Below, one piece after another: positions 848 through 25,480 of a stretch of DNA of 26,466 nucleotides (position 1 is its first letter; each line of letters starts with the position of its first letter). This DNA comes from a virus. The notes under the pieces are model-generated. The model did not search any database, was not told the origin of the DNA, and saw nothing but the letters and a program-made list of their open reading frames with translations. The stretch is from IMG/VR virus record IMGVR_UViG_3300038441_000344, positions 1-26,466 of that record, one strand, 5' to 3'. The position numbers were made by a program, and so were the translations under genes.

Positions 848-1155
848 GCAGTAAATGCGATGACGATGTTTTCAAGAATGGCCAAAGCGTGTGCTTGGTG
901 GATATCCCAAAAGAAGTCGCCGAGAACATCTGCCGAGGGTTATCGGCTGTTACCGGGTGCAAAATAGATTGGTATTACGCCGGTGGCAGGGTTCACATAA
1001 AGGCAATTCCTCCGGCCACGCAAAATAGCCATCATGTCACACCACTTCACCCCCACAACGACGGCCTCGACGAATACCGGCAGCCCGTGCACGTCGGTGA
1101 ACTTGATCCGGCGCAACGGTTGTCGCTGGCTAGGGGTGAAAAATGGGAAGAATAA
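844..1155 (+). CDS. hypothetical phage protein
   Basis: This is a 103-residue protein starting at ATG 844 in an ATGA overlap. The first half has alternating hydrophobic residues and two cysteines (CLVDIP, NICRGLSAVTGCKIDWYYAGGRVHI) and could form a small alpha/beta fold. The second half is polar, with several histidines and prolines. The gene runs 13 bases into the following HTH gene. I do not recognise the family. Confidence 0.65.
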   Translation: MSSKCDDDVFKNGQSVCLVDIPKEVAENICRGLSAVTGCKIDWYYAGGRVHIKAIPPATQNSHHVTPLHPHNDGLDEYRQPVHVGELDPAQRLSLARGEKWEE

Positions 1156-1628
1156 TTGTTACTGAGGCTCAGCGAGAGACTGCGCACTTGATGCGGCTTG
1201 CCGGCAAGACCTGGGCGGCAGTTGAGGCGGTGATCGGGTTTAGTCGCGACACGCTGCGCAGAAACATGAAGGTTAAAGGCCTTGAGATGCAGGGCAAGTT
1301 CGGTAAGCTGCCCGTCAGAAAGCTATCGGCGCCACCGAGTGAGATACGGTTCCACGTTATGCGGCTTGGCAACAGAAAGGCCGTGGCTGAGCTGTACGGC
1401 GTCGGGCATGTAACGGTTTATCAGGCGCTACCTGTCACAGATATCGATTATTACCATCGCGGGCAGATGGTCAGTATTGGAGGTATCCTGGCTAAGAAGT
1501 GCTTCGTCTGCGGAGTTGCCAGGGAACTGGAGCGGTTCCTTGCTAATCCAGCGGCAAAATCTGGCTGCCGGGAAACCTGCGATGAATGCTTATTGAAAGC
1601 CAGGATGAAAAAGTATAATGTTCACTAG
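1143..1628 (+). CDS. double helix-turn-helix protein with C-terminal zinc-ribbon-like motif
   Basis: This 161-residue protein starts at ATG 1143 inside the end of the previous gene. Residues about 10-43 (RETAHLMRLAGKTWAAVEAV, then IGFSRDTLRR) and about 72-97 (NRKAVAELYGVGHVTVYQAL) each look like a helix-turn-helix of the kind seen in resolvases and transposase-like regulators. A C-terminal Cys set (C120, C123, C142, C146, C149) fits a small zinc site, like the ribbon 'KKCxxC...F...G...CxxC' found in several phage DNA-binding proteins. It is therefore probably a DNA-binding protein; target and role are unknown. It is the last gene before the rightward terminator at 1650. Confidence 0.75.
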   Translation: MGRIIVTEAQRETAHLMRLAGKTWAAVEAVIGFSRDTLRRNMKVKGLEMQGKFGKLPVRKLSAPPSEIRFHVMRLGNRKAVAELYGVGHVTVYQALPVTDIDYYHRGQMVSIGGILAKKCFVCGVARELERFLANPAAKSGCRETCDECLLKARMKKYNVH

Positions 1629-3867: not shown

Positions 3868-4788
3868 ATGGCCTTCACTTTGAACAACATCGCATCCGAC
3901 AAAGAAAACACGGCAGCCAAGCGCGGCGATGCAATCCGCGCACAACTCAGCAAAATCAAGATCGTCAACGGTTTCAATGAGCGCGATTTCAAGCGTGAAG
4001 ACGTGAGACTACATATCGCGTCAATCGTCGCGTCACTGATTGCTGGCGAGCCCATCCCGTCGCTCGTGGTCTGGACCAATCCTGAAACCGGTGATATCGA
4101 GCTGGTAGACGGCGAGTGCCGCTACTGGGCCTACACTGATTTCGCCGAGACGTATCCTGATCGCTTCGATGGTTACGTCAGCGTCGTGCCGTTCCAGGGT
4201 ACGCCAGCCCAGCGCAAGGCCATGGTCGCCAAGAGCAACAGCCAGTTGCCGCTTGACCCGATTCAGCGCGGCAGGGTTTACCTCTCTTTGCGCGACGACC
4301 ACGGCATGACCCGCCAGGAAATCGCGCTGGACATGAACAAGTCGCTAGCGCATATCGACCAGCACATCCTGCTGGCAAGTGGCTCCGAAGAAATTCACCA
4401 AGCCGTCGAGCGCAAGGAAATCAGCGCTACCGAAGCAACAAAACTCATCCGCGACCACGGTTCCGATGCGCCTGCCGAGCTGGAGCGCCGCAAGGAGGCT
4501 GCCAAGGAGATTGGCAAGGACAAGGTTACGGCTAAGGTTGCGGCGCCTAAGAAGGCTTCAGCCAAGCGCGAATGGCCCGTCAATCTGGTTGCATCGTCTC
4601 GCGCCATCGCTGGAAGCCTTGGCGAAGGGTTGTTGCAGGCCGTCGTCCTCGGCAACTCTTCCGAACTTGTCGAGATCCGAGCCGACCTCCTAGCTGAGCT
4701 GCTCATGGCTATTGGCGACATCGCAGAGGAAGAACTCCCAGACGCTCCTAACACCGCTCAGCTCGACATGCTTGGCGAGGCGGTATGA
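3868..4788 (+). CDS. ParB/Spo0J-like partition-family protein
   Basis: ATG 3868 follows AGAAAGGAGCAACACCG; 306 residues. Residues about 25-120 form the ParB N-terminal domain, with VDGECRYWAY at the position of the GERR box that binds nucleotide in ParB-type CTPases. The stretch NSQLPLDPIQRG, then a helix-turn-helix (MTRQEIALDMNKSLAHIDQH), matches the ParB central DNA-binding part. A Lys/Ala-rich linker (about 215-240) joins a C-terminal helical region. No ParA gene accompanies it here. It could be a centromere-type protein of a plasmid-like prophage, a transcription regulator, or a partner of the methyltransferase it overlaps by ATGA. Confidence 0.85.
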   Translation: MAFTLNNIASDKENTAAKRGDAIRAQLSKIKIVNGFNERDFKREDVRLHIASIVASLIAGEPIPSLVVWTNPETGDIELVDGECRYWAYTDFAETYPDRFDGYVSVVPFQGTPAQRKAMVAKSNSQLPLDPIQRGRVYLSLRDDHGMTRQEIALDMNKSLAHIDQHILLASGSEEIHQAVERKEISATEATKLIRDHGSDAPAELERRKEAAKEIGKDKVTAKVAAPKKASAKREWPVNLVASSRAIAGSLGEGLLQAVVLGNSSELVEIRADLLAELLMAIGDIAEEELPDAPNTAQLDMLGEAV

Positions 4789-5708
4789 ATGAGCTGGCTC
4801 TTTTCGCGGGCGCTGGTGGTGGAATACTTGCAAGCCAAATCATCGGCGCCAATACGGTCTGCGCGGTCGAACGGGATGCCTATGCCGCAGGCATACTTGC
4901 CCAAAGACAGAATGATGGACTACTCCCGGCTTTCCCGATCTGGGATGACGTTAGCACCTTTGATGGGAAGCCTTGGCGAGGAATTGTTGACTTGGTATCT
5001 GGTGGATTCCCCTGCCAGGACATTAGCGCCGCAGGATCTGGCGCCGGGATCGAAGGTTCAAGATCGGGACTTTGGAAGCAAATGCTTAGAATTGTTGGCG
5101 AGATACGACCTGGATTCGTCTTCATGGAAAACAGTCCGCTCATCATCAGAAGAGGTCTTGCCGTGGTCATCAGTGACCTTGCCGAGATCGGGTACGGCAT
5201 GCAATGGCTGTGTTTATCCGCAGCCGAGTGCGGCGCCCATCATGGACGAGATCGTTTCTGGGGTCTGGCCTACCCCGACATGCAAAGGCTTGGATGGCGG
5301 CAGCAACTCCAGGAAGGCGGCGAAAGCTCGGGGCATGTGGCCAACGATTACAGTTCACGGCAACTACAACCGCAAGGGCGCCAGCAAGACGAGCGGCGAC
5401 GGACTGATAACGGCCATCTGGCGGACTCCGAATGCGTCGGATTCCAACAAGTGGAGCAATCAGTCGCTAGCCGAGCGCCAGGAGAAGGGGCAGCAGATCA
5501 GGCTGAACACGCAAGTATCTCCAGAGGGTGGCAAGGGTGGCCTGCTGAACCCAATGTGGGTCGAGTGGCTGATGGGGTGGCCTCTCGGGTGGACAAGCTT
5601 AGATGTCTTGGAAACGGACAAGTACCAAGAGTGGCTGCGGCAGCATTCGAAATATTGATGGGCAGAATATCCTGCCGAGAATCAGAACAGCTTTGGAGCA
5701 ACGAATAA
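4785..5708 (+). CDS. C5 cytosine-specific DNA methyltransferase (Dcm-like)
   Basis: ATG 4785 overlaps the ParB stop (ATGA); 307 residues. Conserved motifs appear in order: I LFAGAGGG (SAM binding), IV GGFPCQDIS with the catalytic Cys, VI ENSP with the catalytic Glu, VIII GRDRFWGLA, and IX/X near the end LGNGQVPRVAAAAFEIL. The region between VIII and X, where target recognition sits, is short and rich in Gln, Arg and Gly. It should methylate cytosine in a short DNA motif, probably to protect phage DNA from host restriction. No restriction enzyme gene is beside it. Almost the whole gene is also open in the +1 frame, and that frame looks like a real protein (4789-5658), which constrains this sequence. 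Confidence 0.92.
   Translation: MNELALFAGAGGGILASQIIGANTVCAVERDAYAAGILAQRQNDGLLPAFPIWDDVSTFDGKPWRGIVDLVSGGFPCQDISAAGSGAGIEGSRSGLWKQMLRIVGEIRPGFVFMENSPLIIRRGLAVVISDLAEIGYGMQWLCLSAAECGAHHGRDRFWGLAYPDMQRLGWRQQLQEGGESSGHVANDYSSRQLQPQGRQQDERRRTDNGHLADSECVGFQQVEQSVASRAPGEGAADQAEHASISRGWQGWPAEPNVGRVADGVASRVDKLRCLGNGQVPRVAAAAFEILMGRISCRESEQLWSNE
4789..5658 (+). CDS. overprinted protein in the +1 frame of the methyltransferase gene (MSWLFSRALV / WPTP family)
   Basis: A 289-residue frame starts at ATG 4789, only four bases after the methyltransferase start, so both share one ribosome site. Its features match a phage protein family I recall as occurring on its own elsewhere: N-terminal MSWLFSRALV, MPQAYLPKDRM, SGMTLAPL, repeated WPTP/WRTP elements (WPTPTCKG, WPTITVHGNYNRKGA, WRTPNASDSN), and C-terminal NPMWVEWLMGWPLGWT ending with a short KYQEWLRQH tail. 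These elements coincide base for base with methyltransferase motifs; for example the NPMWVEW region encodes EPNVGRVADG in frame 0. Function is unknown. Whether both frames are translated is an inference. Confidence 0.6.
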   Translation: MSWLFSRALVVEYLQAKSSAPIRSARSNGMPMPQAYLPKDRMMDYSRLSRSGMTLAPLMGSLGEELLTWYLVDSPARTLAPQDLAPGSKVQDRDFGSKCLELLARYDLDSSSWKTVRSSSEEVLPWSSVTLPRSGTACNGCVYPQPSAAPIMDEIVSGVWPTPTCKGLDGGSNSRKAAKARGMWPTITVHGNYNRKGASKTSGDGLITAIWRTPNASDSNKWSNQSLAERQEKGQQIRLNTQVSPEGGKGGLLNPMWVEWLMGWPLGWTSLDVLETDKYQEWLRQHSKY

Positions 5709-7375: not shown

Positions 7376-9385
7376 TTGGGACTTTTAAGCCATCAAAAAC
7401 CAGTAGTTGCAGCGCTGACCAAGCATTTTAAAACACGGCAAACAGTCAAGTTCGGCGAACGTGATATCCATCCACCAGTAATAGTCTCGGCTTCCGTATC
7501 AAGCGGGAAGTCCGTGATGCTCGCCGAGTGCGCCAAGGCCGTGAAAGATGCGGCTCTCGCAAAAGAAAAACCATCGACAGTGTTCGTTATGGTAATTCAA
7601 AACCAGGGGCTCCTCTGCGCCCAAAATAGCGCGGCAGCTTGGGATATAGGGCTGAATAACTCCGTGTTTTCTGCTTCGTGTGGAGGTCGCAAGAGCACTC
7701 ATTATTCAGTCGTCTATGGAACTATCGGGACCATAGCTAGAGCGCTTGAGACATACAGATTCAGCGCTTACACCCCTGAAGAATTGGCGATGTCGCCCGA
7801 GCAGCGCTTTAGGCTTAACAAGTGGTTCCCGGACTTAATCCTTATTGATGAAGTGCATCAAGTTCCTTTTGAGAACGTTGAGGCGCAATACATGAAGGTC
7901 CTGAATCACTTCTATGATATGAAGCCGCACCTAAGGCTTGCCGGAATGACCGGCTCCCCTTTCCGTGGCTCGAACTCCATCGTCGGAACTACCCTCGAAC
8001 ATCTCTGGAAATCGGTAGCCAGCATAGAGCCTGGAGACCCTGACTATCCGCCAGGTGGTGTCGGTAACGGCATAATCTCTACCGAGTTCAGCGCTGATCA
8101 AGGCTGGATTCTCAGCCCGATATTTGGGTATCCAGACGACGAGAATATCCGGTATGACTTCTCCCATCTGGTCGATCAGGATTGGGCGTACCCAGAGTCA
8201 GATCTGGATGCCGCCGTCAGCGACAAAGCTTTGTGCCTATCTATCTGCGCCGACTTCATCAGGAAAACAGTCGACCGTAAAGGCGTGCTTATTTTTGCTG
8301 CCACCAAACGACACACTAGGCAGATCGCGGCAGCCCTGAAACTGCTCGGCGTCGATCCAGAGCAAATCGGCGTGATAACCGAGAACACTCCGCAAAAAGA
8401 GCAGACCAGAATTTTGGATGCAGCAAAGGCCGGCAAGCTTAAGTTCACCATCAACGTCTCAGTGCTGACCACGGGGGTCAATGTAGCCTGGTGGGATTCA
8501 GTCGTGTTCATGCGCCCAATCGCCTCAATTGTTCTGCTGATTCAAGCCATTGGTCGTGTCTTGCGACTGCTAATCGAAGACGGTGACGTCCCAATGCTGG
8601 AGCGTGACGCGCTTACCGCTGAGATGCGTAAATTGCTGATCGCTGCCAGCAATAAACCAGATGCGCTGGTCCTTGATTACGCGAATGTTATGGACACTCT
8701 CGGTCACCTTTACGAGAGCCCCATCCTGGAAGCGGCCGAACTGGACAAGGCCAAGAAGGAAGGTAAAGAGCTGATCGAATGTCCAAAATGCATGAAAGAT
8801 CATGGCATTCAAACGATGAACAGCCCGAACGCTCGCCGCTGCATTGGCAAGACAGGAAAGGATCCGCTGACTGGCGCCGCTCAACGCTGTGATCACTTCT
8901 GGCACTTCCGGTTATGTCCTGGATGTGGCACGCAAAATGATCAGGTTGCCCGTGAATGTCGCAATGCTGAATGCCGTCGACTTCTCGTGGATCCCAATGC
9001 AAGTCTTAACGGCAAGCACTACGTATCAGGCGAGTCGATCCCGGTCCGAGCTATGACCGCAGGCGCCGGATCCGGCGGAAAATTCTTCATCCGCTACGAG
9101 CTATCGACGGGCGACACACCAATCGAAATCTTCTACCCGCATGCAGGCGCCGATCCGCAGAAGAAGAAGATCAACACGGCCATATGGGCGAAGTTTGTAG
9201 ATCAGTTGCCGATTGATTCCAGGTCGAAGTTTCGATTGAAGGCGATGAAGGCTTCGACGGTTGCTGAAAATCTGGAGCTGATACCGGTTCCGAATGAGAT
9301 ATCGGCACGTAAGAAGGGCGAGAAGTGGACTGTAGGCCGCAGATGGTATGCGGAGACTGAGAATTTTATGGAGGCGACGGCATGA
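7376..9385 (+). CDS. superfamily 2 DEAD/DEAH-type helicase with C-terminal zinc-binding region
   Basis: The start is TTG 7376. It follows the previous stop directly, no earlier in-frame start is possible, and GGAGG lies eight bases upstream. 669 residues. Motifs in order: Q-like HQKPVVAAL, I SVSSGKSVML (Walker A), II LIDEVHQ (DEVH box), III GMTGSPFRG, IV GVLIFAATKRH, V VSVLTTGVNV, VI QAIGRVLRL with the arginine finger. After the helicase core come Cys pairs (CPKC, CPGC, CRNAEC) of a zinc-binding region. It should unwind or remodel nucleic acid using ATP, probably for phage DNA replication or recombination. It overlaps the next gene by ATGA. Confidence 0.92.
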   Translation: MGLLSHQKPVVAALTKHFKTRQTVKFGERDIHPPVIVSASVSSGKSVMLAECAKAVKDAALAKEKPSTVFVMVIQNQGLLCAQNSAAAWDIGLNNSVFSASCGGRKSTHYSVVYGTIGTIARALETYRFSAYTPEELAMSPEQRFRLNKWFPDLILIDEVHQVPFENVEAQYMKVLNHFYDMKPHLRLAGMTGSPFRGSNSIVGTTLEHLWKSVASIEPGDPDYPPGGVGNGIISTEFSADQGWILSPIFGYPDDENIRYDFSHLVDQDWAYPESDLDAAVSDKALCLSICADFIRKTVDRKGVLIFAATKRHTRQIAAALKLLGVDPEQIGVITENTPQKEQTRILDAAKAGKLKFTINVSVLTTGVNVAWWDSVVFMRPIASIVLLIQAIGRVLRLLIEDGDVPMLERDALTAEMRKLLIAASNKPDALVLDYANVMDTLGHLYESPILEAAELDKAKKEGKELIECPKCMKDHGIQTMNSPNARRCIGKTGKDPLTGAAQRCDHFWHFRLCPGCGTQNDQVARECRNAECRRLLVDPNASLNGKHYVSGESIPVRAMTAGAGSGGKFFIRYELSTGDTPIEIFYPHAGADPQKKKINTAIWAKFVDQLPIDSRSKFRLKAMKASTVAENLELIPVPNEISARKKGEKWTVGRRWYAETENFMEATA

Positions 9386-9978
9386 TGATCGCGGCATTGT
9401 TTGTCCAGAAAGACGGCTGCTACGCCAATGACTCATCGGTCGATGCGTGGCCAGAGGATCGCGATGCTCGCCTGTATCGTGGAAGTCTTCCGGTGGTTGC
9501 GCATCCACCTTGCCAGCTTTGGGGGCCGATGGCGGCAGTTAACTTCAAGCGCTGGGGTGGCGAGCACAATCGCCCAGGCAACGATCACGGCTGTTTTGCA
9601 TCAGCCCTTGCCAGCGTCCGTGAGTTCGGCGGCGTACTTGAGCATCCGGCAAAGACACGGGCTTGGGTTGCGCACGGCCTTACCAAGCCGACAACTATCG
9701 GCTGGCAACGTTGTGGGAATGGCTGGGTATGTGAGGTATGGCAGTCCGCGTACGGTCACCGAGCAAATAAGGCGACCTGGCTCTATTACTCTGGCGTGCG
9801 CAAGCCTTTCGATCTTGATTGGTCGAGGCCAAAGGGAACGCATCAGATTGGTTTTCATGATCAGCGTGGGAAGGCTGCCAATAAACCCACGCTGTACAAG
9901 CGAGAAGCCAATGCTACGCCGCCAGCATTCAAGGAGGTTCTGATTCGTTTGGCGCTCCATTCGAGGGCAATAGCATGA
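9382..9978 (+). CDS. conserved phage protein of unknown function with HPPC motif
   Basis: ATG 9382 in an ATGA overlap (a second ATG follows directly); 198 residues. The opening IAALFVQKDGCY, then VDAWPEDRDARLY, VVAHPPCQLWG, GGVLEHPA and a C-terminal PPAFKEVLIRLA mark a family seen in many phages. I recall it as unnamed or loosely labelled methyltransferase-like. The PPC and GGVLEHP segments resemble catalytic motifs IV and VI of C5 cytosine methyltransferases (PPC, ENP), but there is no clear SAM-binding glycine loop. It may be a distant relative with another chemistry. It sits between the helicase and a nuclease in one operon. Confidence 0.8.
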   Translation: MMIAALFVQKDGCYANDSSVDAWPEDRDARLYRGSLPVVAHPPCQLWGPMAAVNFKRWGGEHNRPGNDHGCFASALASVREFGGVLEHPAKTRAWVAHGLTKPTTIGWQRCGNGWVCEVWQSAYGHRANKATWLYYSGVRKPFDLDWSRPKGTHQIGFHDQRGKAANKPTLYKREANATPPAFKEVLIRLALHSRAIA

Positions 9979-18449: not shown

Positions 18450-18916
18450 ATAGCTGGCGGTGCGCTTCTTTTTCCTAGTTCTGAGCGGCATAACTGAAGT
18501 AGTGAGTACTGCTCAGCTAGGCCGCGCTCCAGGGCGAAATAATAGCCCGTAGCAGTGGCGTCAAGTTCTGCGGTTCCGGCACCAGCTCTGCCGGCATCGG
18601 CTCCGTTGGAGGGCACACCAGCGGGACACTTGGCCTTGATGTACAGCCGCTCAGGGCCAGCAGTAACACGACGCTCAAGATCATTGATTTCACGTTCTGC
18701 CCCTGACTTATATTCGATGAATGCTGTGCGGAATGATTCTGTCTCTTCGCGAGCCTTTGTCATTTCCGCATTGATAGCGTCTACGGCCGCGACAGTGGCG
18801 CTCGCTGAGGCAAGACTGATCGACGCTACGTCGTTATCCCAGCGAATCCCTTGGATGTACCAGGCTCCGCTAGCGCCAATGAGAAGCGCGACGCAATAGC
18901 CGTAGAGTGGGCTCAT
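18434..18916 (-). CDS. Rz: i-spanin (Rz-like)
   Basis: ATG 18916 in an ATGA overlap with the endolysin stop; 160 residues. It has an N-terminal signal-anchor helix (LYGYCVALLIGASGAWYIQG), then a long charged helical periplasmic part (EETESFRTAFIEYKSGAERE) and RLYIKAKCPAG, with a C-terminal helix after an Ala/Gly linker. This is the standard Rz plan: inner-membrane subunit of the spanin pair that fuses inner and outer membranes at the last step of lysis. The o-spanin is encoded inside it in another frame. Confidence 0.88.
   Translation of the reverse strand: MSPLYGYCVALLIGASGAWYIQGIRWDNDVASISLASASATVAAVDAINAEMTKAREETESFRTAFIEYKSGAEREINDLERRVTAGPERLYIKAKCPAGVPSNGADAGRAGAGTAELDATATGYYFALERGLAEQYSLLQLCRSELGKRSAPPAIKKAP
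18517..18693 (-). CDS. Rz1: o-spanin lipoprotein (Rz1-like), fully embedded in Rz
   Basis: GTG 18693 has AGGGG six bases upstream; ATG 18684 is an alternative. The 58-residue product starts MKSMILSVVLLLALSGC: a basic start, hydrophobic core and LSGC lipobox with Cys17 as the lipidated residue. The mature part is proline-rich (PSVPLVCPPTEPMPAELVPE), as in known Rz1 proteins. The whole gene lies in a different frame within the Rz gene, the classical embedded arrangement. It should be the outer-membrane partner of Rz. Confidence 0.9.
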   Translation of the reverse strand: MKSMILSVVLLLALSGCTSRPSVPLVCPPTEPMPAELVPEPQNLTPLLRAIISPWSAA

Positions 18917-19371
18917 GAGTCCAGAACCCCGCCCTTTGTCTGGTAGATACCGATCAGTCGATCTGTCGTATGCTCGTGCTGGCCGTAACCTGCGCCAGGC
19001 AGCGACGCCCAGCGTGACCGGCACTTGTGCAGCGCCGAGGCAATGCGCCCCGCATTCACGTCATCCATCGCCTTGCACTCTTTGATTAACTGGATAGCGA
19101 TCTTGTCCTGACTGGCTGGAGAGAAGTCGGGGAGCTTTAGCTGCTTCTTGTAGGCATCGTAGTAGCGAGCCAGCACCTGGTAACGGCCGGCAGCCGTGGA
19201 CTTAATGCCGAGCTTCGGCAAATCAACAAGCTTTCGCGGGTGATCCGCATAGCTGGAGAATAGCCCGCCGCCGACAATCACGTCGTAACCATGATCCTTG
19301 CTTGGCTGCCCCGGCTTATCCGTCCCTTCGCTGAAGGCAATTGTATCGAGGAATGCACTAAGGTTTGTCAT
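18913..19371 (-). CDS. endolysin, lambda R-like transglycosylase (GH104)
   Basis: ATG 19371 in an ATGA overlap with the holin candidate; 152 residues. The sequence FLDTIAFSEGT (catalytic Glu15), GYDVIVGGGLFSSYADHPRK, then STAAGRYQVLARYYDAYKKQ is the signature of the phage lambda R lytic transglycosylase family. It cleaves the glycan strands of peptidoglycan without water. It has no signal peptide, so it needs a holin to cross the inner membrane. Confidence 0.93.
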   Translation of the reverse strand: MTNLSAFLDTIAFSEGTDKPGQPSKDHGYDVIVGGGLFSSYADHPRKLVDLPKLGIKSTAAGRYQVLARYYDAYKKQLKLPDFSPASQDKIAIQLIKECKAMDDVNAGRIASALHKCRSRWASLPGAGYGQHEHTTDRLIGIYQTKGGVLDS

Positions 19372-19592
19372 GCCGACGGACCAGAGACTGATACCTGCTT
19401 GACCTGGAGCGCCAAGAAGGTCGCAACCGACAGGCCAAGCATGATCAGTTTGTAGGTCTGCGGCTCAACGAATTCCTGAATCGACGGCATGAATCCGAGG
19501 ATGTCGTTAACGTTGATGGTCGCGACAAGCGCAAGCAGCCAGGTCGACCAGCGCTTATACCAGGCTTTCCAGTTCGGGATTAATTCGAGCAC
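19368..19592 (-). CDS. holin candidate
   Basis: GTG 19592 has GAGGA seven bases upstream; 74 residues. An amphipathic start (ELIPNWKAWYKRWS) leads into two hydrophobic helices (TWLLALVATINVNDILGFMP and YKLIMLGLSVATFLALQVKQ) with a polar C-terminus. Size, two membrane segments and position directly before the endolysin with an ATGA overlap all fit a small holin. The membrane proteins at 19609 and 19872 are rivals for that role. Confidence 0.75.
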   Translation of the reverse strand: MLELIPNWKAWYKRWSTWLLALVATINVNDILGFMPSIQEFVEPQTYKLIMLGLSVATFLALQVKQVSVSGPSA

Positions 19593-19608
19593 GGAGATTT
19601 CCTCTTGA

Positions 19609-19875
19609 TCAAGTTCTAATTCTCGGACGCAGCGCCAGTATGAGTCCAGCCACGATCATTAGCACGGCATGGGCGACGGCTGACCACTCGACATGCCAAT
19701 TGCCTTCAATGGTGCGCAGGATCGCCCAGGCAGCAGCGGCGCCTAACAGAACGATAGGCAGGCGGACAAGATGGTTGGTTGACTTGGACATGCGGCCCGC
19801 GACACACACGCAGACCATCAGGCAATAAAACGACGACACAAGGGCGGGGATAATTAATACGCTGAGAAAGTTCAT
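19609..19875 (-). CDS. membrane protein of the lysis region
   Basis: ATG 19875 in an ATGA overlap with the upstream gene; 88 residues. Three hydrophobic segments are visible: FLSVLIIPALVSSFYCLMVC, RLPIVLLGAAAAWAIL and AVAHAVLMIVAGLILAL, followed by a basic tail. It could be a class I holin, an antiholin or an unrelated membrane factor. No ribosome site distinguishes these roles. Confidence 0.75.
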   Translation of the reverse strand: MNFLSVLIIPALVSSFYCLMVCVCVAGRMSKSTNHLVRLPIVLLGAAAAWAILRTIEGNWHVEWSAVAHAVLMIVAGLILALRPRIRT

Positions 19876-20204
19876 TCGCCAGCCTCCGGGACTTTGCTCT
19901 TGGTGAACCGCTCGACAAGGCCGAAAACCAGCGGGACCAATTTCATACCGAGCAGACCAACCCAAAAGTACAGAGTTCCAAGGATAGCCGTCTCGATTGG
20001 AAAGGTAGGCCACTCCCAAAGGATCGCGTAGTAAATCGCTGGCGAACTGGCGGCGCTAATGCATGTTCCTGCGCCAACTTTGATTATGGCCTGCCTGCGA
20101 TCTTGCGGCGGCCAAAAAGAAAGCGCAACCAGTGCGCCTAAAAATGCGAGGGCTAGCAGATCGGCACGCAGAAGTGAGGCTATGTTTTTTGCGGGGTCAT
20201 CCAC
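19872..20204 (-). CDS. multi-span membrane protein of the lysis region
   Basis: I chose GTG 20204, which has GGAGG seven bases upstream, over the longer TTG 20228 start; 110 residues. Segments LLALAFLGALVALSFW, VGAGTCISAASSPAIYYAIL and TAILGTLYFWVGLLGMKLVP are transmembrane, and the tail is charged (ERFTKSKVPEAGE). Membrane proteins of this layout often sit beside phage holins. It overlaps its neighbours on both sides. Confidence 0.72.
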   Translation of the reverse strand: MDDPAKNIASLLRADLLALAFLGALVALSFWPPQDRRQAIIKVGAGTCISAASSPAIYYAILWEWPTFPIETAILGTLYFWVGLLGMKLVPLVFGLVERFTKSKVPEAGE

Positions 20205-20916
20205 GGTGATGCCTCCATATCGGCGCAAGTATCGTCAGGCAGTTGTTGCGCCAGGTCCACTTTGTCCCGATCAATGCATCTAGGCCTTCGATCAGCTCTT
20301 GGGAGGCTTTGCCGCCTCGCTGCACATGATAGCTAATAGATGGCAACGACGATACCTTGCGGCGCACAAGTCGACCGCTGGAGAACTTATATAGATAGCC
20401 GTTTGCGCACAGTGAGTAGCCACCGTCAGGGCCGAAGCAGCCAGACATCGAGATCAGAAAGTCTTGCGCGCTTGTCGGAATATGGCGGACGCAATACAGG
20501 TAGCCACAGGCAAGCTCATCGGATGGCTGGCCGTATGATCGCCGCCAGTAGTAGAGGAATGCGGATAGTGCGCCGACGCCTTGGATGACGACCATTGAGA
20601 TTGGCGACGGGAACTGCCAGGCGTACCAGGTGATACAGACTACGGCGTCGGAAATGTAATAGCCGCACAAGGCGGCTAATAGACATTTAAGGCGAAGGCT
20701 GCGCCACGGGGTTAGCGTGGCGCAGATTGCGAGAGCGGCCGCCATTCCGATTGGTCGCAGCGAGTCAGTGATGTACCAGGCAAAGCTAGCGGTCGGATCC
20801 GGCAGGAGCGCGAGCAGGTGTCGGCTGACCAAGGCCGCCAGCACGACCAGTAACAGGACTTTTACCGCACGGCTTGGCCTTTGGTTTTGTTGCTGGCTTG
20901 GCGACTGGTTTCGCAC
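20197..20916 (-). CDS. membrane protein with possible papain-like (NlpC/LRAT-type) C-terminal domain
   Basis: The longest frame starts at GTG 20916 without a good ribosome site, so the exact start is uncertain; up to 239 residues. About four transmembrane helices (VLLLVVLAALVSRHLLAL, AALAICATLTP, LLAALCGYYISDAVVCITWY, VIQGVGALSAFLYYW) fill the first 130 residues. The soluble C-terminal 110 residues include ISYHVQRGGKA and KWTWRNNCLTI. The His followed by an NNC is reminiscent of permuted papain-fold enzymes, but this is only a pattern. It precedes the holin/endolysin genes. The N-terminal coding overlaps the Lys/Pro/Ala-rich frame at 20786. Confidence 0.7.
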   Translation of the reverse strand: MRNQSPSQQQNQRPSRAVKVLLLVVLAALVSRHLLALLPDPTASFAWYITDSLRPIGMAAALAICATLTPWRSLRLKCLLAALCGYYISDAVVCITWYAWQFPSPISMVVIQGVGALSAFLYYWRRSYGQPSDELACGYLYCVRHIPTSAQDFLISMSGCFGPDGGYSLCANGYLYKFSSGRLVRRKVSSLPSISYHVQRGGKASQELIEGLDALIGTKWTWRNNCLTILAPIWRHHRG

Positions 20917-20947
20917 TTGGCTTGCTCGCAGGTTTCTTTGCTGTCAT
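20786..20947 (-). CDS. small Lys/Pro/Ala-rich protein
   Basis: ATG 20947 has AAAGGA nine bases upstream, a better ribosome site than that of the overlapping membrane gene; 53 residues. The first half is a KPxxKP repeat (MTAKKPASKPSAKPVAKPAT), the second GKSPVTGRAGGLGQPTPARA. The highly basic repeats resemble histone-tail-like phage proteins that bind DNA or acidic partners. It overlaps 131 bases of the membrane gene in another frame, so one or both starts could be misjudged. Confidence 0.55.
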   Translation of the reverse strand: MTAKKPASKPSAKPVAKPATKPKAKPCGKSPVTGRAGGLGQPTPARAPAGSDR

Positions 20948-20972
20948 GACTATACATCCTTTGGTTAATTGT

Positions 20973-21959
20973 TCATCTATTGAAGCCGCGACCCCACGCG
21001 ATTTCTTGCGCGGAATAACCACTATTTATAACGGCGCATCGCTCGGTAAGCACGTCAGCACCATATAGGTTCTGGTTCGTTCCGTCAGTCCAGATAAGGG
21101 CCTGCGTGGTAGGCGCAGGGAGGCCGTTACGCCCGGACAGATAAACCTTGTCCATGCGCAAGTCTGTCGTAGATCCCTGCACCGTCAAGCCAAATCCGCC
21201 AACGAGCGAAGATTTCATGTTCTGCGACTCGATGTAATGGCAGCCGACGAAAGCGTGACCTCTGCCACCGACACTGTCTGCCATCGTGTGACCGAGCACT
21301 ACAGCTCGGCAGCCCTGGAACCAGAAGCCATGCTGCTCTGACTTGCCACCAGTTGCAGCGGTGCCAGTGACGTCGACGTGGTCAAGGTGCAACCCTTCAA
21401 CGTTGAAGAACGACCAGGCTGGCACGCCTACTTCCGCAAGGTTCCCAATGTAGTCGGCGGTACACTTGCGCAAAAAGATGTAGGCGAACGCACGAGTCAG
21501 GTAACTTGCACGCCCCCGCAACAGGCGAGCCATGACGTCGTCCATTTCAAGATCGATGATCATGCCGGACGGATTGCTGTTGTCCGCAATGAGCCCGAGC
21601 GAGTGGTGGGTTCTGACGTCCTTGAACCTGAATTTCTGGATGTGCTGGGCGGTGTCAAGCATGACGGTATAGCCACCGGTTGAAAGGTGCTCGTCAGTCT
21701 CAAATCCAGATAGCCGAACTCCGTCGCCCTTCACCGTGAAAAGATTCGAGCCGCCTTGCTTGATCAGGTTGTGCCTGCTCCCGATGGAACTCCATGAGCT
21801 ACCAGGAAGCATTGAAACAGGCGCGCCGACAACGATGTCGGCGCCACCCTCAACTACCACCGAACAACGAGCATTGACCGGTCGGTCAATTATATACTGG
21901 CCGTAGTCGACATAAACAACCCCTCCAATCTGGCAGTTTATTCTGTCGACAAGATCCAT
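20973..21959 (-). CDS. beta-helix tailspike/depolymerase-like protein
   Basis: ATG 21959, four bases after the previous stop; 328 residues. The start (DRINCQIGGVVYVDYGQYII) is the entry strand of the pectate-lyase-like right-handed beta-helix fold. Repeating short strands with Gly, Asn and Val follow (FTVKGDGVRLSGFETDEH, IIDLEMDDVM, GLHLDHVDVTG, FQGCRAVVLGHT, VGCHYIESQNM). Such proteins bind or cleave surface polysaccharide of the host. No N-terminal particle-binding domain precedes the helix, which is unusual. It is the last tail gene before the lysis region. Confidence 0.8.
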   Translation of the reverse strand: MDLVDRINCQIGGVVYVDYGQYIIDRPVNARCSVVVEGGADIVVGAPVSMLPGSSWSSIGSRHNLIKQGGSNLFTVKGDGVRLSGFETDEHLSTGGYTVMLDTAQHIQKFRFKDVRTHHSLGLIADNSNPSGMIIDLEMDDVMARLLRGRASYLTRAFAYIFLRKCTADYIGNLAEVGVPAWSFFNVEGLHLDHVDVTGTAATGGKSEQHGFWFQGCRAVVLGHTMADSVGGRGHAFVGCHYIESQNMKSSLVGGFGLTVQGSTTDLRMDKVYLSGRNGLPAPTTQALIWTDGTNQNLYGADVLTERCAVINSGYSAQEIAWGRGFNR

Positions 21960-21962
21960 TAT

Positions 21963-22391
21963 TTAGATCGACTCTGATGGCTGGTCGGGCCACATGATTT
22001 GAATCGGGAAGCCCTCTTGGCTAGGGATAGCCTGAAGATTTATTGCGTACTGATGAAGCTCTAGCAGTTTTTCTTTGAGCTTTCCTGCGTAAGTATCATC
22101 GCTGGTCATGTCAATCTCGCGTCGGACCATTTGCGTTCCTGCGTCATACACCGACCTAAGCAGGTAATCCCGTTGATTCCTTGCTGCATTAGCCAGCATC
22201 TCAAGATCTGGCTCTGGCTCAGGAGGAGGTGGTGGCGGAATAAACTCACCACTAGCGTATGAGTCACCGGGGCTTGCAGTATCGCTCCTGACAACCTCAT
22301 GACCATCTGGCGGCGTCCATTCAACCGGCTCATCAAGCTCGATCACATTTACTACCAGGGCGGTAGCAATTTCAATCAGTGCATATCGCAT
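21963..22391 (-). CDS. tail-fibre assembly/chaperone-like protein
   Basis: ATG 22391 has AAGG upstream; 142 residues. The N-terminal ALIEIATALVVNVIELDEPV strand, a proline-rich hinge (IPPPPPPEPEPD), a helical middle with NQRDYLLRSV and a C-terminal helix ending IPSQEGFPIQIMWPDQP fit the small proteins placed directly after tail-fibre genes in Pseudomonas and Mu-like phages (DUF4376/XkdW-like tail-fibre assembly). The assignment rests on position and general layout. Confidence 0.7.
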   Translation of the reverse strand: MRYALIEIATALVVNVIELDEPVEWTPPDGHEVVRSDTASPGDSYASGEFIPPPPPPEPEPDLEMLANAARNQRDYLLRSVYDAGTQMVRREIDMTSDDTYAGKLKEKLLELHQYAINLQAIPSQEGFPIQIMWPDQPSESI

Positions 22392-22397
22392 TCTTAT

Positions 22398-23534
22398 TTA
22401 CCTTACGCAAAATGAAATAACTACGACAAGGCCAGCCGTCCCGCCGCCGCCTACTTGAGATACCGAGGTGCATGCCCCGCCAGATCCACCACCACCCCTT
22501 CCGCTCGAAGTTACGCCAGCACTTACCGGTCCTGACTGCGGCGCCCTACTGCTGAATGGACTCGCCGCACCAAATCCGCTTAATCCTCCGTTGGTGGTGC
22601 CCATGATAAATCCTACACCGCCAAACTCTCCTGGGATGTTTACGTCGCCACCGGTAGCTGTCCCGCCCGCCCCGCCGGATCCAGACAGTGCAATAACAGA
22701 CCCTGACACACCCGCAGTCCCGCCGTTCCCGCCAGCGGTACTCAGAAGCGCGCCGAATGTTGTAGCGCCGCCATTACCACCGTTAGCGGCCGCGTTTCCA
22801 GGGGCTCCAGCACTCCCGATAGTTACAGACTGAGACGCGCCAACCTGCGCCGCCGTGAAAAGTTTTTCGCTATATCCCCCGGCGCCGCCACCACCTCCAG
22901 CCGAGCTGCCGCCACCGCCGCCAGTACATCCGGCGCCGCCGCCGCCACCGCCAACTTGTCTAACAAGGTGGTATAGGGCGCCAATAGGAGCCGTGAATGT
23001 TCCGGTTGCGCTAATTACGGTAAGGACTGGCTTCATAGTCCATGGAAGTATCTCCCATGCTCCATTGCCACCGTTAAATGCCGCATTGTAAATAACCTGA
23101 ACGTATTGACCGGCCTGTATGGCGTCGGCAGGAATAGCGGCGTCACTCTGCGTGCGAATTGCCTTTGAGCCGATGAGCGTACCCGTGGTCTGCCCAATGT
23201 TTAGTGTTGAAGCCGCAGTGTTCGAAAATGCCGCCTTAAAAGTTAAGACCGCGCCATTCATATTTGCATAATCTGGCGGCAGCAATACGCCATTTGTCCC
23301 GGAGATCGGAGTAGCCACATAAGCATTCGCTGCGCCACTATCCTGAAATGACTCCGACTTTACGCCGTGCAGGAACAGGGATTGCGCGAGCTGCGTTGCT
23401 GATGCACCACTAAGAGTCTGCCCTGATCGCAGGACCGCATTCTCGGCTTCGCTCGCCAAGTTATTGAACTCGGCAGCAGAAAGCTGACCGCCAGGTGGTG
23501 GCGAGTTATCCGCCTTTGTGCCGAAATCCTGCAT
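22398..23534 (-). CDS. tail fibre with glycine-rich C-terminal domain
   Basis: ATG 23534 has GAGG seven bases upstream; 378 residues. Residues 1-190 carry the common fibre N-terminal plan (MQDFGTKADNSPPPGGQLSA, then an AEFNNLASEAENAVLRSG helix and a VLTFKAAFSNTAASTLNI module). From about residue 190 the protein is almost half glycine (GGGGGGAGCTGGGGGSSAGG and many repeats), resembling glycine-rich adhesins whose polyglycine-II sheets display host-recognition loops. The final GTAGLVVVISFCVR strand closes the domain. It probably mediates host binding. Confidence 0.85.
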   Translation of the reverse strand: MQDFGTKADNSPPPGGQLSAAEFNNLASEAENAVLRSGQTLSGASATQLAQSLFLHGVKSESFQDSGAANAYVATPISGTNGVLLPPDYANMNGAVLTFKAAFSNTAASTLNIGQTTGTLIGSKAIRTQSDAAIPADAIQAGQYVQVIYNAAFNGGNGAWEILPWTMKPVLTVISATGTFTAPIGALYHLVRQVGGGGGGAGCTGGGGGSSAGGGGGAGGYSEKLFTAAQVGASQSVTIGSAGAPGNAAANGGNGGATTFGALLSTAGGNGGTAGVSGSVIALSGSGGAGGTATGGDVNIPGEFGGVGFIMGTTNGGLSGFGAASPFSSRAPQSGPVSAGVTSSGRGGGGSGGACTSVSQVGGGGTAGLVVVISFCVR

Positions 23535-23543
23535 TTTATGGCC

Positions 23544-24134
23544 TCACTGGAAAATAATTAATACGTTGGCTGGGGCGATCTGCTCGAACACGCAACGAAT
23601 GATGTTGTCGCCAGTCGAAACAAAGTTGAACGGAAACAAATACGGGAAGCCGCCTATCGCATCATTGAACGTGACATACAGCTTAAAGTAAGAGTTGCCG
23701 CTAGCAAAGTAGATTGGGAAGTCCAACGGAAACAGCTCCAGCTCTGCGCCAGGCGTTACGGTTACGCTGAGGCCTGTTAGCTGAAAGGCAAGGTCTTCAT
23801 AATCCTGCTTTGTGACGAAAGGGATTTTACGCAATCGCAAGATCACCGCGTTTCGGCGATCTTCAAGCGAAGCCATTGCGCCAATGCATTCCTCTGGCAG
23901 GCCGGTTGATGTCTCCCAGTCAGGAAGAAGCTGATTAGTCAGTCTGATATTGAATTCGGTTGCCAGTGTTTCGATCTGGATCTGGATTGCCCTGAACTCG
24001 GCGGCGCAGGCGCTAGTCACCGCATGCATGCCGGTGCCAGCAAGATTCTTTGCCTGCCATGCTCTGCCGTCAGGAATGGTCGATGCCAGCTGCCTGGCAG
24101 CCTCTTCCTGAGATGGCGCCGTGAATTTCATCAT
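23544..24134 (-). CDS. tail protein, Mu gp48 / DUF2313 (YmfQ) family
   Basis: ATG 24134 (a second ATG at 24131) overlaps the baseplate J stop as ATGA; 196 residues. The pattern ARQLASTIPDGRAWQAKN, the LLPDWETSTGLPEECIG segment and ERRNAV-like SLEDRRNAVILRLRK are typical of the Mu gp48/YmfQ family, part of the baseplate wedge that connects the baseplate to the fibre. The C-terminal half is rich in Phe and Leu beta-strands. Confidence 0.88.
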   Translation of the reverse strand: MMKFTAPSQEEAARQLASTIPDGRAWQAKNLAGTGMHAVTSACAAEFRAIQIQIETLATEFNIRLTNQLLPDWETSTGLPEECIGAMASLEDRRNAVILRLRKIPFVTKQDYEDLAFQLTGLSVTVTPGAELELFPLDFPIYFASGNSYFKLYVTFNDAIGGFPYLFPFNFVSTGDNIIRCVFEQIAPANVLIIFQ

Positions 24135-25480
24135 GGGAATGTCACCGCACCAAGAACCGGGATATTCCCGTCGGCGACAACGATTGCAGCTGTAGGGCTG
24201 GATAGCGTGAATGACTGCAGGCGATCTCCAGTAACGGTATCCCGCGTATTCTGGATGGCCCCCTGATAGCTCGGCGCCGGAATATCTTCCTCGAATGTAA
24301 CGCTATCCTGAAAGAAAGCGATCAGCTGATTCCTGATTGATGTCTTCATTGTTTCGGTATTGGGTAGGATCGCCGAGAATGCAAAGTCCACGACCTGCGC
24401 AACTGGAGCCAAAACAAACACGTCATCTGCGCGGGTATGCGCAGGCAACTTGCCCTGCTCGATGATCGCAACCTTGGTCTGATCAAGGATGCTTTGCGTT
24501 GGAATGATGTTGGCGTCGTCATCGCGCACGATAATCACGACGACCTGTCCGGCAGCGGGGCTGTATGACGGCAGACCTTGAGTGCCACTGCCGAGCGCGG
24601 TAACTGGACGCTTAACGAACACTCGCGTGTTGCCGGGAATCGTGCGTGCCGCAATCTTAATCTGGTCCTCGGTGAATACGCCGCTGATATTCGCGCGACT
24701 CTCGATAATCCGATCACGGTATGGATCATCTTTTTCAAGATCTGCGCCACCACTCACGCCGGCAAACTGAACATAAGCCAGAGAGTCAAGATTCGGCAGG
24801 CTGACATTCAGCGTTGCACCAGCGATCATGTTGGTTCCTGGGCCGGTGGTATCGGCCTGGATATTCAGCGATGCGAAGTTGCTGGTCTCGGTAATCACAC
24901 CTGTAGCTGGCGTTGCTGGAGCGCCAACAACCTGATAAGTAAATGTGTCCGGGCCTATCACCGTGACTGGCGCCGATACGTTATAGGCTGCCTGATCTGC
25001 GCCAGAGATTGTCATGGACATGCCGGTCGCGAGTCTGTGCGGAGTTGGCGTGATAGCGGTTGCGGTAGTTCCTGAGCGAGTCAGCGACGAAAGCAGTAGC
25101 GCCACGGTCTCTACGGCGGCAGGCGAAAGCACGGTGTAGACCACGCTATTCGACCCGGTGAACTGCTCGCCAGCATTGATAACCGTTGCCACTACGCCGT
25201 TAAGGCTGACGGGGCCGCTTGCGCCGGTAGCCGGATTTCGCGGCAGATTCTCATAGCTACCCCAGCGATCAAGGAACTCATCGGTGGCGGTCTGCGGGAA
25301 CATTTCCTGCTCAAGATCGCGCACCAGAAATCCCATCGCGTGAGCCATGGCGCCGCAGCCGTCGATGAACCCACGAGACCATGAGCCGAACACGGTCGGG
25401 TCGACATTCGGCAGTTGCCTGCGGAACTCAGCGCGAGCCGTTTCAATCAGCTGCTCAAGTGTTGGGTATGACAGAGGCAT
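24131..25480 (-). CDS. baseplate J-like protein (Mu gp47 family)
   Basis: ATG 25480 has GGAG eight bases upstream; 449 residues. The N-terminal LEQLIETARAEFRRQLP, FGSWSRGFIDGCGAMAHAM and a long LDRWG...PRNPATGASGPV region match baseplate J; the C-terminal half (GVSGGADLEKDDPYRDRIIE, GNTRVFVKRP, GQVVVIIVRDDD) carries the family core. Residues about 131-200 (TRSGTTATAITPTPHRLATG ... YNVSAPVTVIGPDTFTYQV) look like an inserted Ig-like beta-sandwich. It forms the inner wedge of the contractile baseplate. It overlaps the gp46-like gene by 26 bases. Confidence 0.92.
   Translation of the reverse strand: MPLSYPTLEQLIETARAEFRRQLPNVDPTVFGSWSRGFIDGCGAMAHAMGFLVRDLEQEMFPQTATDEFLDRWGSYENLPRNPATGASGPVSLNGVVATVINAGEQFTGSNSVVYTVLSPAAVETVALLLSSLTRSGTTATAITPTPHRLATGMSMTISGADQAAYNVSAPVTVIGPDTFTYQVVGAPATPATGVITETSNFASLNIQADTTGPGTNMIAGATLNVSLPNLDSLAYVQFAGVSGGADLEKDDPYRDRIIESRANISGVFTEDQIKIAARTIPGNTRVFVKRPVTALGSGTQGLPSYSPAAGQVVVIIVRDDDANIIPTQSILDQTKVAIIEQGKLPAHTRADDVFVLAPVAQVVDFAFSAILPNTETMKTSIRNQLIAFFQDSVTFEEDIPAPSYQGAIQNTRDTVTGDRLQSFTLSSPTAAIVVADGNIPVLGAVTFP

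Follow-up and report, generated by a model that had tools for sequence, protein, structure and literature searches.

The window, meaning the whole stretch of virus-record DNA that was analysed (26,466 bases), reads as a fragment of a tailed phage or prophage because genes for endolysin, tail-fibre assembly and baseplate lie on the minus strand (18913-25480) and DNA-metabolism genes, such as helicase and exonuclease, on the plus strand. A C5-cytosine DNA methyltransferase frame, here called alpha, was found to share almost its entire length with a second open frame, beta, displaced by +1. The features of the locus are the following:

3868-4788, plus strand: ParB-like gene upstream of alpha (phrog_1033, 1.9e-49)
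4777-4791, plus strand: start region common to alpha and beta, read from the sequence
4785-5708, plus strand: alpha, large subunit of a C5-cytosine DNA methyltransferase (307 aa, frame 0), ATG start, PF00145
4794-5261, plus strand: alpha motifs I-VIII (FAGAGGG; GFPCQ at 5004-5018; ENS at 5127-5135; HGRDRFW, to 5261)
5283-5537, plus strand: alpha filler, from motif VIII to the EPNVGRVADG segment, unconserved in frame 0 and with no consensus
5610-5627, plus strand: alpha motif X, GNGQVP, from motif reading and a regex census
4789-5658, plus strand: beta, 289 aa, frame +1, ATG start, proposed small-domain subunit (target recognition and motif IX); homologous and open in 157/161 viral loci, dNN/dNS 0.12 overall
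4789-5262, plus strand: beta N-terminal extension (MSWLFSRALV...), overlying alpha motifs I-VIII
5263-5538, plus strand: beta PTP-repeat region, the predicted target-recognition region (WPTPTCKGLDG, WPTITVHGNYNRKGASKTSGDG, WRTPNASD)
5545-5592, plus strand: beta motif-IX-like segment LNPMWVEWLMGWPLGW, with invariant P255, V258, E259, W260 and M262

Start region and domain content of the two frames

The 289-codon +1 frame that the initial annotation placed four bases after the start of frame 0 is present, at 4789-5658 inside 4785-5708. The TGA stop of the ParB-like gene (4786-4788) overlaps the alpha ATG (4785-4787) and is followed directly by the beta ATG (4789-4791), with a GAGG (4777-4780) lying 4 nt before the former and 8 nt before the latter. 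Initiation of both products from one region, as had been suggested, agrees with this GAGG and with the fixed 4-nt offset, and a single ribosome site serving alpha and beta is plausible. The beta start lies exactly 4 nt past the alpha start in 148 of the 161 viral loci, and the first beta codon is ATG in 158. Among 148 loci, the start region takes the forms ATGAATGAG, TTGAATGAG and GTGAATGAG (122, 17 and 9 loci, respectively), the alpha start codon being ATG in 122, TTG in 17 and GTG in 9, with a median gap of 5 nt between the Shine-Dalgarno sequence and the alpha start. While the alpha start codon varies in these loci, the AATGAG that creates the beta ATG is invariant, and the beta ATG dictates an AAT at alpha codon 2, found in 119/119.

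Alpha matches PF00145 (1.5e-29), is covered by an HhaI match over residues 4-163 and aligns through its motifs I-VIII to single-chain methyltransferases (E = 3.9e-37). It carries in one chain the catalytic features of PF00145 (motif I, PCQ of motif IV, EN of motif VI and motif VIII), and the motif X feature (GN.VP) is found as GNGQVP. The identification of frame 0 as a C5-methyltransferase with all catalytic motifs was upheld for motifs I-VIII and X, with the correction that motif VI reads ENS, not ENV. A target-recognition region and motif IX were absent from the alpha chain, a motif-IX-like segment occurring only in the +1 frame; the filler (residues about 167-250, dNS/dSS 1.56) sits where the target-recognition region is usual. 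The AF2 model of alpha is confident over residues ~1-170 and 279-305 and disordered over 181-238 (pLDDT below 50), and its top Foldseek match was M.HhaI, over ~175 columns. In this model, alpha resembles the large domain of such an enzyme with the small one missing.

Beta gave no family in Pfam, NCBIfam or PDB profile searches, and when all 83 beta proteins were scanned against Pfam and NCBIfam, only chance matches came back. Modelled alone by AF2, beta was predicted poorly (mean pLDDT 56), and Foldseek with this poor model found no PDB fold match, results that neither support nor exclude a small-domain role. In profile comparison, beta 159-271 aligned with residues 200-353 of single-chain methyltransferases (probability 97.3, E = 1.9e-11), an alignment resting partly on the repetitive PTP segments, and alpha 5-166 aligned with residues 5-160 of the same proteins (E = 3.9e-37). 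The separate second subunits of split loci align both with beta (3.5e-15) and with single-chain methyltransferases; a TALE match of one such second subunit was rejected as repeat noise. The "WPTP repeats" of the initial annotation comprise one exact WPTP, the two other copies being degenerate (WPTI and WRTP). For motif IX, HhaI 272-321 (RKLHPRECARVMGYPDSY...GNSVV), a peptide checked against its PDB copy, was compared with a profile built from the IX-X segments of single-chain and split proteins and gave a weak score of 4.5 bits (E = 0.0015 for one sequence), against 3.4 bits for the best of 500 shuffles. The LNPMWVEWLMGWPLGW segment of beta resembles the C5-methyltransferase motif IX, with modest support that comes also from its order and position. 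Since the conserved half of beta is found in frame and rightly ordered within single-chain actinophage methyltransferases, beta is probably the small domain of a methyltransferase, and not a new overprinted protein with a role of its own.

Open frames and selection

Synonymous codon shuffling within alpha gave an expectation of 7.2 stops in the +1 frame across the beta region, and this frame was open in 0/5000 shuffles. The viral set consisted of 161 loci among the matches listed and the genomic set of the best 80 of 311 relatives; beta stayed open throughout the match in 157 of the 161 viral loci. Frequent +1 stops in relatives had been named in the initial annotation as one sign that would speak against it, and 80 loci retrieved by methyltransferase sequence alone held only 2 stops in total in their +1 matches. 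A mean of about 5.8 +1 stops per locus was expected over 142 family loci, a set filtered for open frames, so that the unfiltered figures carry more weight. Together with the constraint on the beta frame described below, these values bear out the claim of two genuine overlapping proteins. Stops do occur in a few copies: alpha carries nonsense codons with beta open in three genomic loci (L270, L285 and L333), one of them inside the PCQ motif, and beta carries stops, mostly with alpha open, in L018/L019/L160, L098 and L321. These are probably decaying copies or sequence errors, and both frames are affected. Elsewhere in the window, a second long +1 frame (9401-9943, plus strand, 180 aa, inside 9382-9978) was open in 3.9% of synonymous shuffles, which is compatible with chance.

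Selection was measured on 57 non-overlapping (independent) pairs, with single-chain methyltransferases as the control. The dNN/dNS of beta was 0.12 overall, 0.084 in the PTP region (bootstrap 0.057-0.116) and 0.065 towards the C-terminus, the bootstrap limits lying well under 0.2, against 0.34-0.53 in the corresponding part of the control. The comparison of both frames across homologous loci that had been proposed at the outset revealed reduced nonsynonymous change in the second half of beta. For the N-terminal half, dNN/dNS was 0.27 against control values of 0.52-0.54, a difference that was gone with position-matched transversions (0.33 versus 0.36-0.47). Silent alpha changes that would create a beta stop were found at 0/1828 sites in this half and at 1 in 2821 sites in all, in the independent pairs. 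For beta 1-158, avoidance of stops is demonstrated and amino-acid constraint is indistinguishable from the control. A pooled test in the manner of OLGenie, which took the +2 frame as control (dNN/dNS 0.2 versus 1.5), was set aside in favour of the independent pairs, this control being biased by differing codon positions, and the claim of strong constraint on the N-terminal half was then dropped.

Over motif IX, fourfold sites of alpha are frozen (P256 CCC 120/120, G259 GGT 118/118, V261 GTG 110/110, A262 GCT 107/107 and G264 GGG 118/118), and codon variety returns from about residue 276, as motif X begins. In the middle region, beta is constrained and alpha has no consensus; the strong amino-acid constraint on the second half of beta coincides exactly with the stretch in which alpha is unconstrained. 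Both frames are constrained, and by order the conserved half of beta corresponds to the part of single-chain relatives lying after motif VIII and before motif X.

Single-chain, split and nested relatives

Three arrangements were found among the relatives. In ShiLan gp70, prophiT49-1 gp22 and others, one frame holds motifs I-VIII, repeated LLPTPxA.D, RLAPAFSEWMMGWPAGW and then RIIGNGVVPQQ. In RemusLoopin gp34/gp35, phiBT1 9.1, Kampy gp78/gp77 and Dylan gp7/gp6, the catalytic frame ends past motif VIII, and the PTP repeats, an EWLMG/EWMMG motif and GNGV lie in the +1 frame. The nested type, to which the window and most fetched loci belong, has the PTP and WLMGWP parts in the +1 frame and GNGQVP in frame 0. 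A regex census, which may misplace a few loci, counted 19 single-ORF actinophage methyltransferases with motifs I-VIII, PTP repeats, IX and X in one frame (17 plus 2), 29 split loci with I-VIII in alpha and PTP, IX and X in the +1 frame (25 plus 4), and nested loci in four sets (76/80, 77/80, 26 and 9); a frame-0 motif IX was absent from every nested locus of these sets. The first motif-IX expression required a proline and missed most actinophage loci, and a looser version was used.

In the catalytic-domain tree, single-ORF and split forms are interleaved (e.g., the sister pair L191/L179); few of the inner branches are well supported and an outgroup is lacking, so that the tree does not fix the direction of change. 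Frame toggling seems easy in this family, since the two forms are interleaved and since in Mycobacterium phage Ochi17 (L173) and in L243 a frameshift swaps the halves, the N-terminal half of alpha ending early and that of the beta frame continuing into the C-terminal half of alpha. In split mycobacteriophage loci (L175, L179 and L196-L225), annotated second-subunit starts differ, and an ATG is conserved 94-109 nt before the alpha stop, often as the Met of SGMTRSG; this ATG likely starts the second subunit in most split loci. Gene 9.1 of Streptomyces phage phiBT1 (L178) is annotated as a methylase, possibly inactive, and a +1-frame second subunit at about 1471-2082 is unannotated. In Paenibacillus polymyxa plasmid pAP1 (L170), the NPxWVECLMGFPLxWT motif occurs twice in tandem in the +1 frame, with frame-0 segments duplicated to match. 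Relatives were found in phages of Acinetobacter, Salmonella, Pseudomonas, Vibrio, Microcystis, Lacticaseibacillus, Bacteroides, Paenibacillus and actinobacteria, in Pseudomonadota contigs and in metagenome-assembled genomes labelled Verrucomicrobia, Planctomycetota, Spirochaetia, Patescibacteria and Anaerolineales, labels that may be wrong.

The initial annotation also held that the +1 product occurs as a stand-alone protein and that its family was born by overprinting of methyltransferase motifs. All 161 listed viral beta matches and all of the best 80 genomic ones lie +1 to the methyltransferase catalytic frame, and the first claim found no backing: stand-alone beta was seen in 0/241 loci (the 161 viral matches listed and the best 80 of 311 genomic relatives), a count that excludes PHROG 26627, 35493 and 27243, with distant or stand-alone forms possible beyond the best matches. 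A database entry for a stand-alone protein most likely records just one of the two frames in a dual-coded gene. The second claim is reversed, the conserved half of beta being methyltransferase sequence that stands in frame in single-chain enzymes. A de novo overprinted gene has no non-overlapping homologue, and single-chain methyltransferases hold in-frame counterparts of the conserved half of beta; the overprinted parts are the alpha filler and the N-terminal half of beta.

Among two-polypeptide C5-methyltransferases, Lee, Kam and Shaw are said to have described in 1995 an EcoHK31I beta nested in an alternative frame of alpha, both being needed in vitro, and this beta has about 176 aa; the second polypeptide of the window likewise lies inside alpha in another frame, and differs in covering almost all of alpha and in starting 4 nt after it. 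M.EcoHK31I (YGGCCR) has motifs I-VIII and X on its large subunit and motif IX on the smaller polypeptide, and its predicted target-recognition domain was placed in the large subunit (PMC3404938). The distribution of motifs I-VIII, X and IX is the same in the window, a likeness of architecture, whereas the conserved variable region of the window is in beta. In M.AquI, the catalytic and the IX-bearing parts are also on two polypeptides (PMC3404938). The small subunit of M.AquI carries both motif IX and motif X, an arrangement matched by the split actinophage loci L164, L175, L178 and L179, whereas the window has motif X in alpha. ShiLan gp70 and prophiT49-1 gp22 share the order of modules (I-VIII, PTP repeats, IX and X) and differ in having all of them in one frame, with no second protein. 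Alpha matches the large domain of M.HhaI and M.HaeIII in sequence and fold; their small domain is on the same chain, and no fold match of beta to that domain was detectable. A literature search on overlapping or nested methyltransferase genes found nothing past mentions of EcoHK31I and AquI, and an E. coli genome search gave four distant relatives and no identifiable EcoHK31I system.

A probable split enzyme and its alternatives

The locus probably encodes one split C5-cytosine methyltransferase, an alpha/beta pair in two overlapping frames. Alpha would supply the large catalytic domain, with motifs I-VIII and X, SAM binding and the catalytic Cys of PCQ, and beta the small domain, which comprises motif IX and a variable target-recognition region bearing the PTP repeats. 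Beta would initiate 4 nt downstream of alpha from the same Shine-Dalgarno region, starts so close together would couple the synthesis of the two chains, and these would form an obligate heterodimer, as in M.EcoHK31I, predicted to methylate phage DNA at a specific site. Site-specific self-methylation by phage methyltransferases is an established means of avoiding host restriction, and methylation of the phage DNA would here probably serve to evade it. Frameshifts that compensate each other at the borders of the domain, one separating motif VIII from the target-recognition domain and the other motif IX from motif X, would have put the small domain in the +1 frame and left motif X in frame 0; we infer the order of evolutionary events behind the frame split.

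That beta might instead be a separate overprinted phage protein with its own function, such as an anti-restriction or regulatory factor, is unlikely, even though it belongs to no Pfam, NCBIfam or PDB family and its N-terminal half has no counterpart in single-chain methyltransferases. A weak Lar-like restriction-alleviation match elsewhere in the window (1143-1628, plus strand, phrog_5558, 9.5e-5) would fit an anti-restriction theme. Against such a protein, single-chain enzymes carry counterparts of the conserved half, in frame and in the right position, no homologue apart from a methyltransferase was found among the 161 viral matches listed and the best 80 of 311 genomic ones, and alpha is without the small domain that the enzyme needs. 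Of the modulator of methylation or restriction first envisaged, the link to DNA methylation survives, and the modulator role is replaced by the small-domain subunit proposal.

Programmed frameshifting, by which ribosomes would shift +1 past motif VIII into the beta frame and back before motif X to yield one full-length enzyme, would account for several split mycobacteriophage loci that lack a start codon near the alpha stop and for the interleaving of split and single-ORF forms in the tree (L191/L179 as sisters). It is nevertheless very improbable: in the nested type the ribosome would have to shift twice, in opposite directions, beta opens at a constant position with an ATG of its own (ATG in 158/161 loci, alpha codon 2 AAT in 119/119), and an internal ATG is conserved about 94-109 nt before the alpha stop in most split loci. 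Least credible of all is the idea that the +1 frame goes untranslated and only mirrors conserved alpha sequence and GC-rich codon choice. Constraint on the N-terminal half of beta is indeed near the position-matched control (0.33 versus 0.36-0.47), but no synonymous shuffle of 5000 left the frame open, beta is constrained where alpha is unconstrained, and silent alpha changes hardly ever make a beta stop (1 in 2821 sites in independent pairs).

With the split enzyme as the preferred reading, the locus family would form a natural set of split methyltransferases, and it is on balance probable that it represents an unrecognised large class of phage and prophage C5-methyltransferases: obligate heterodimers with two domains in two frames of one DNA, in which, in at least two lineages, pairs of frameshifts at the domain borders carried the small domain out of the main frame, with dual coding kept by selection. 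Dual coding is perhaps kept to force equal synthesis of the subunits, or to let target recognition diversify beside fixed catalysis. If this is true, hundreds of phage and prophage methyltransferases annotated as one protein are two-protein enzymes, and a second methyltransferase subunit is missing from Pfam and NCBIfam, the partner of phiBT1 9.1 being one that is unannotated. The case would be one of unusually clean dual coding, the two frames being two structural domains of one enzyme, and the single-chain, split and nested forms would be natural intermediates that allow tests of the origin and upkeep of overlapping genes.
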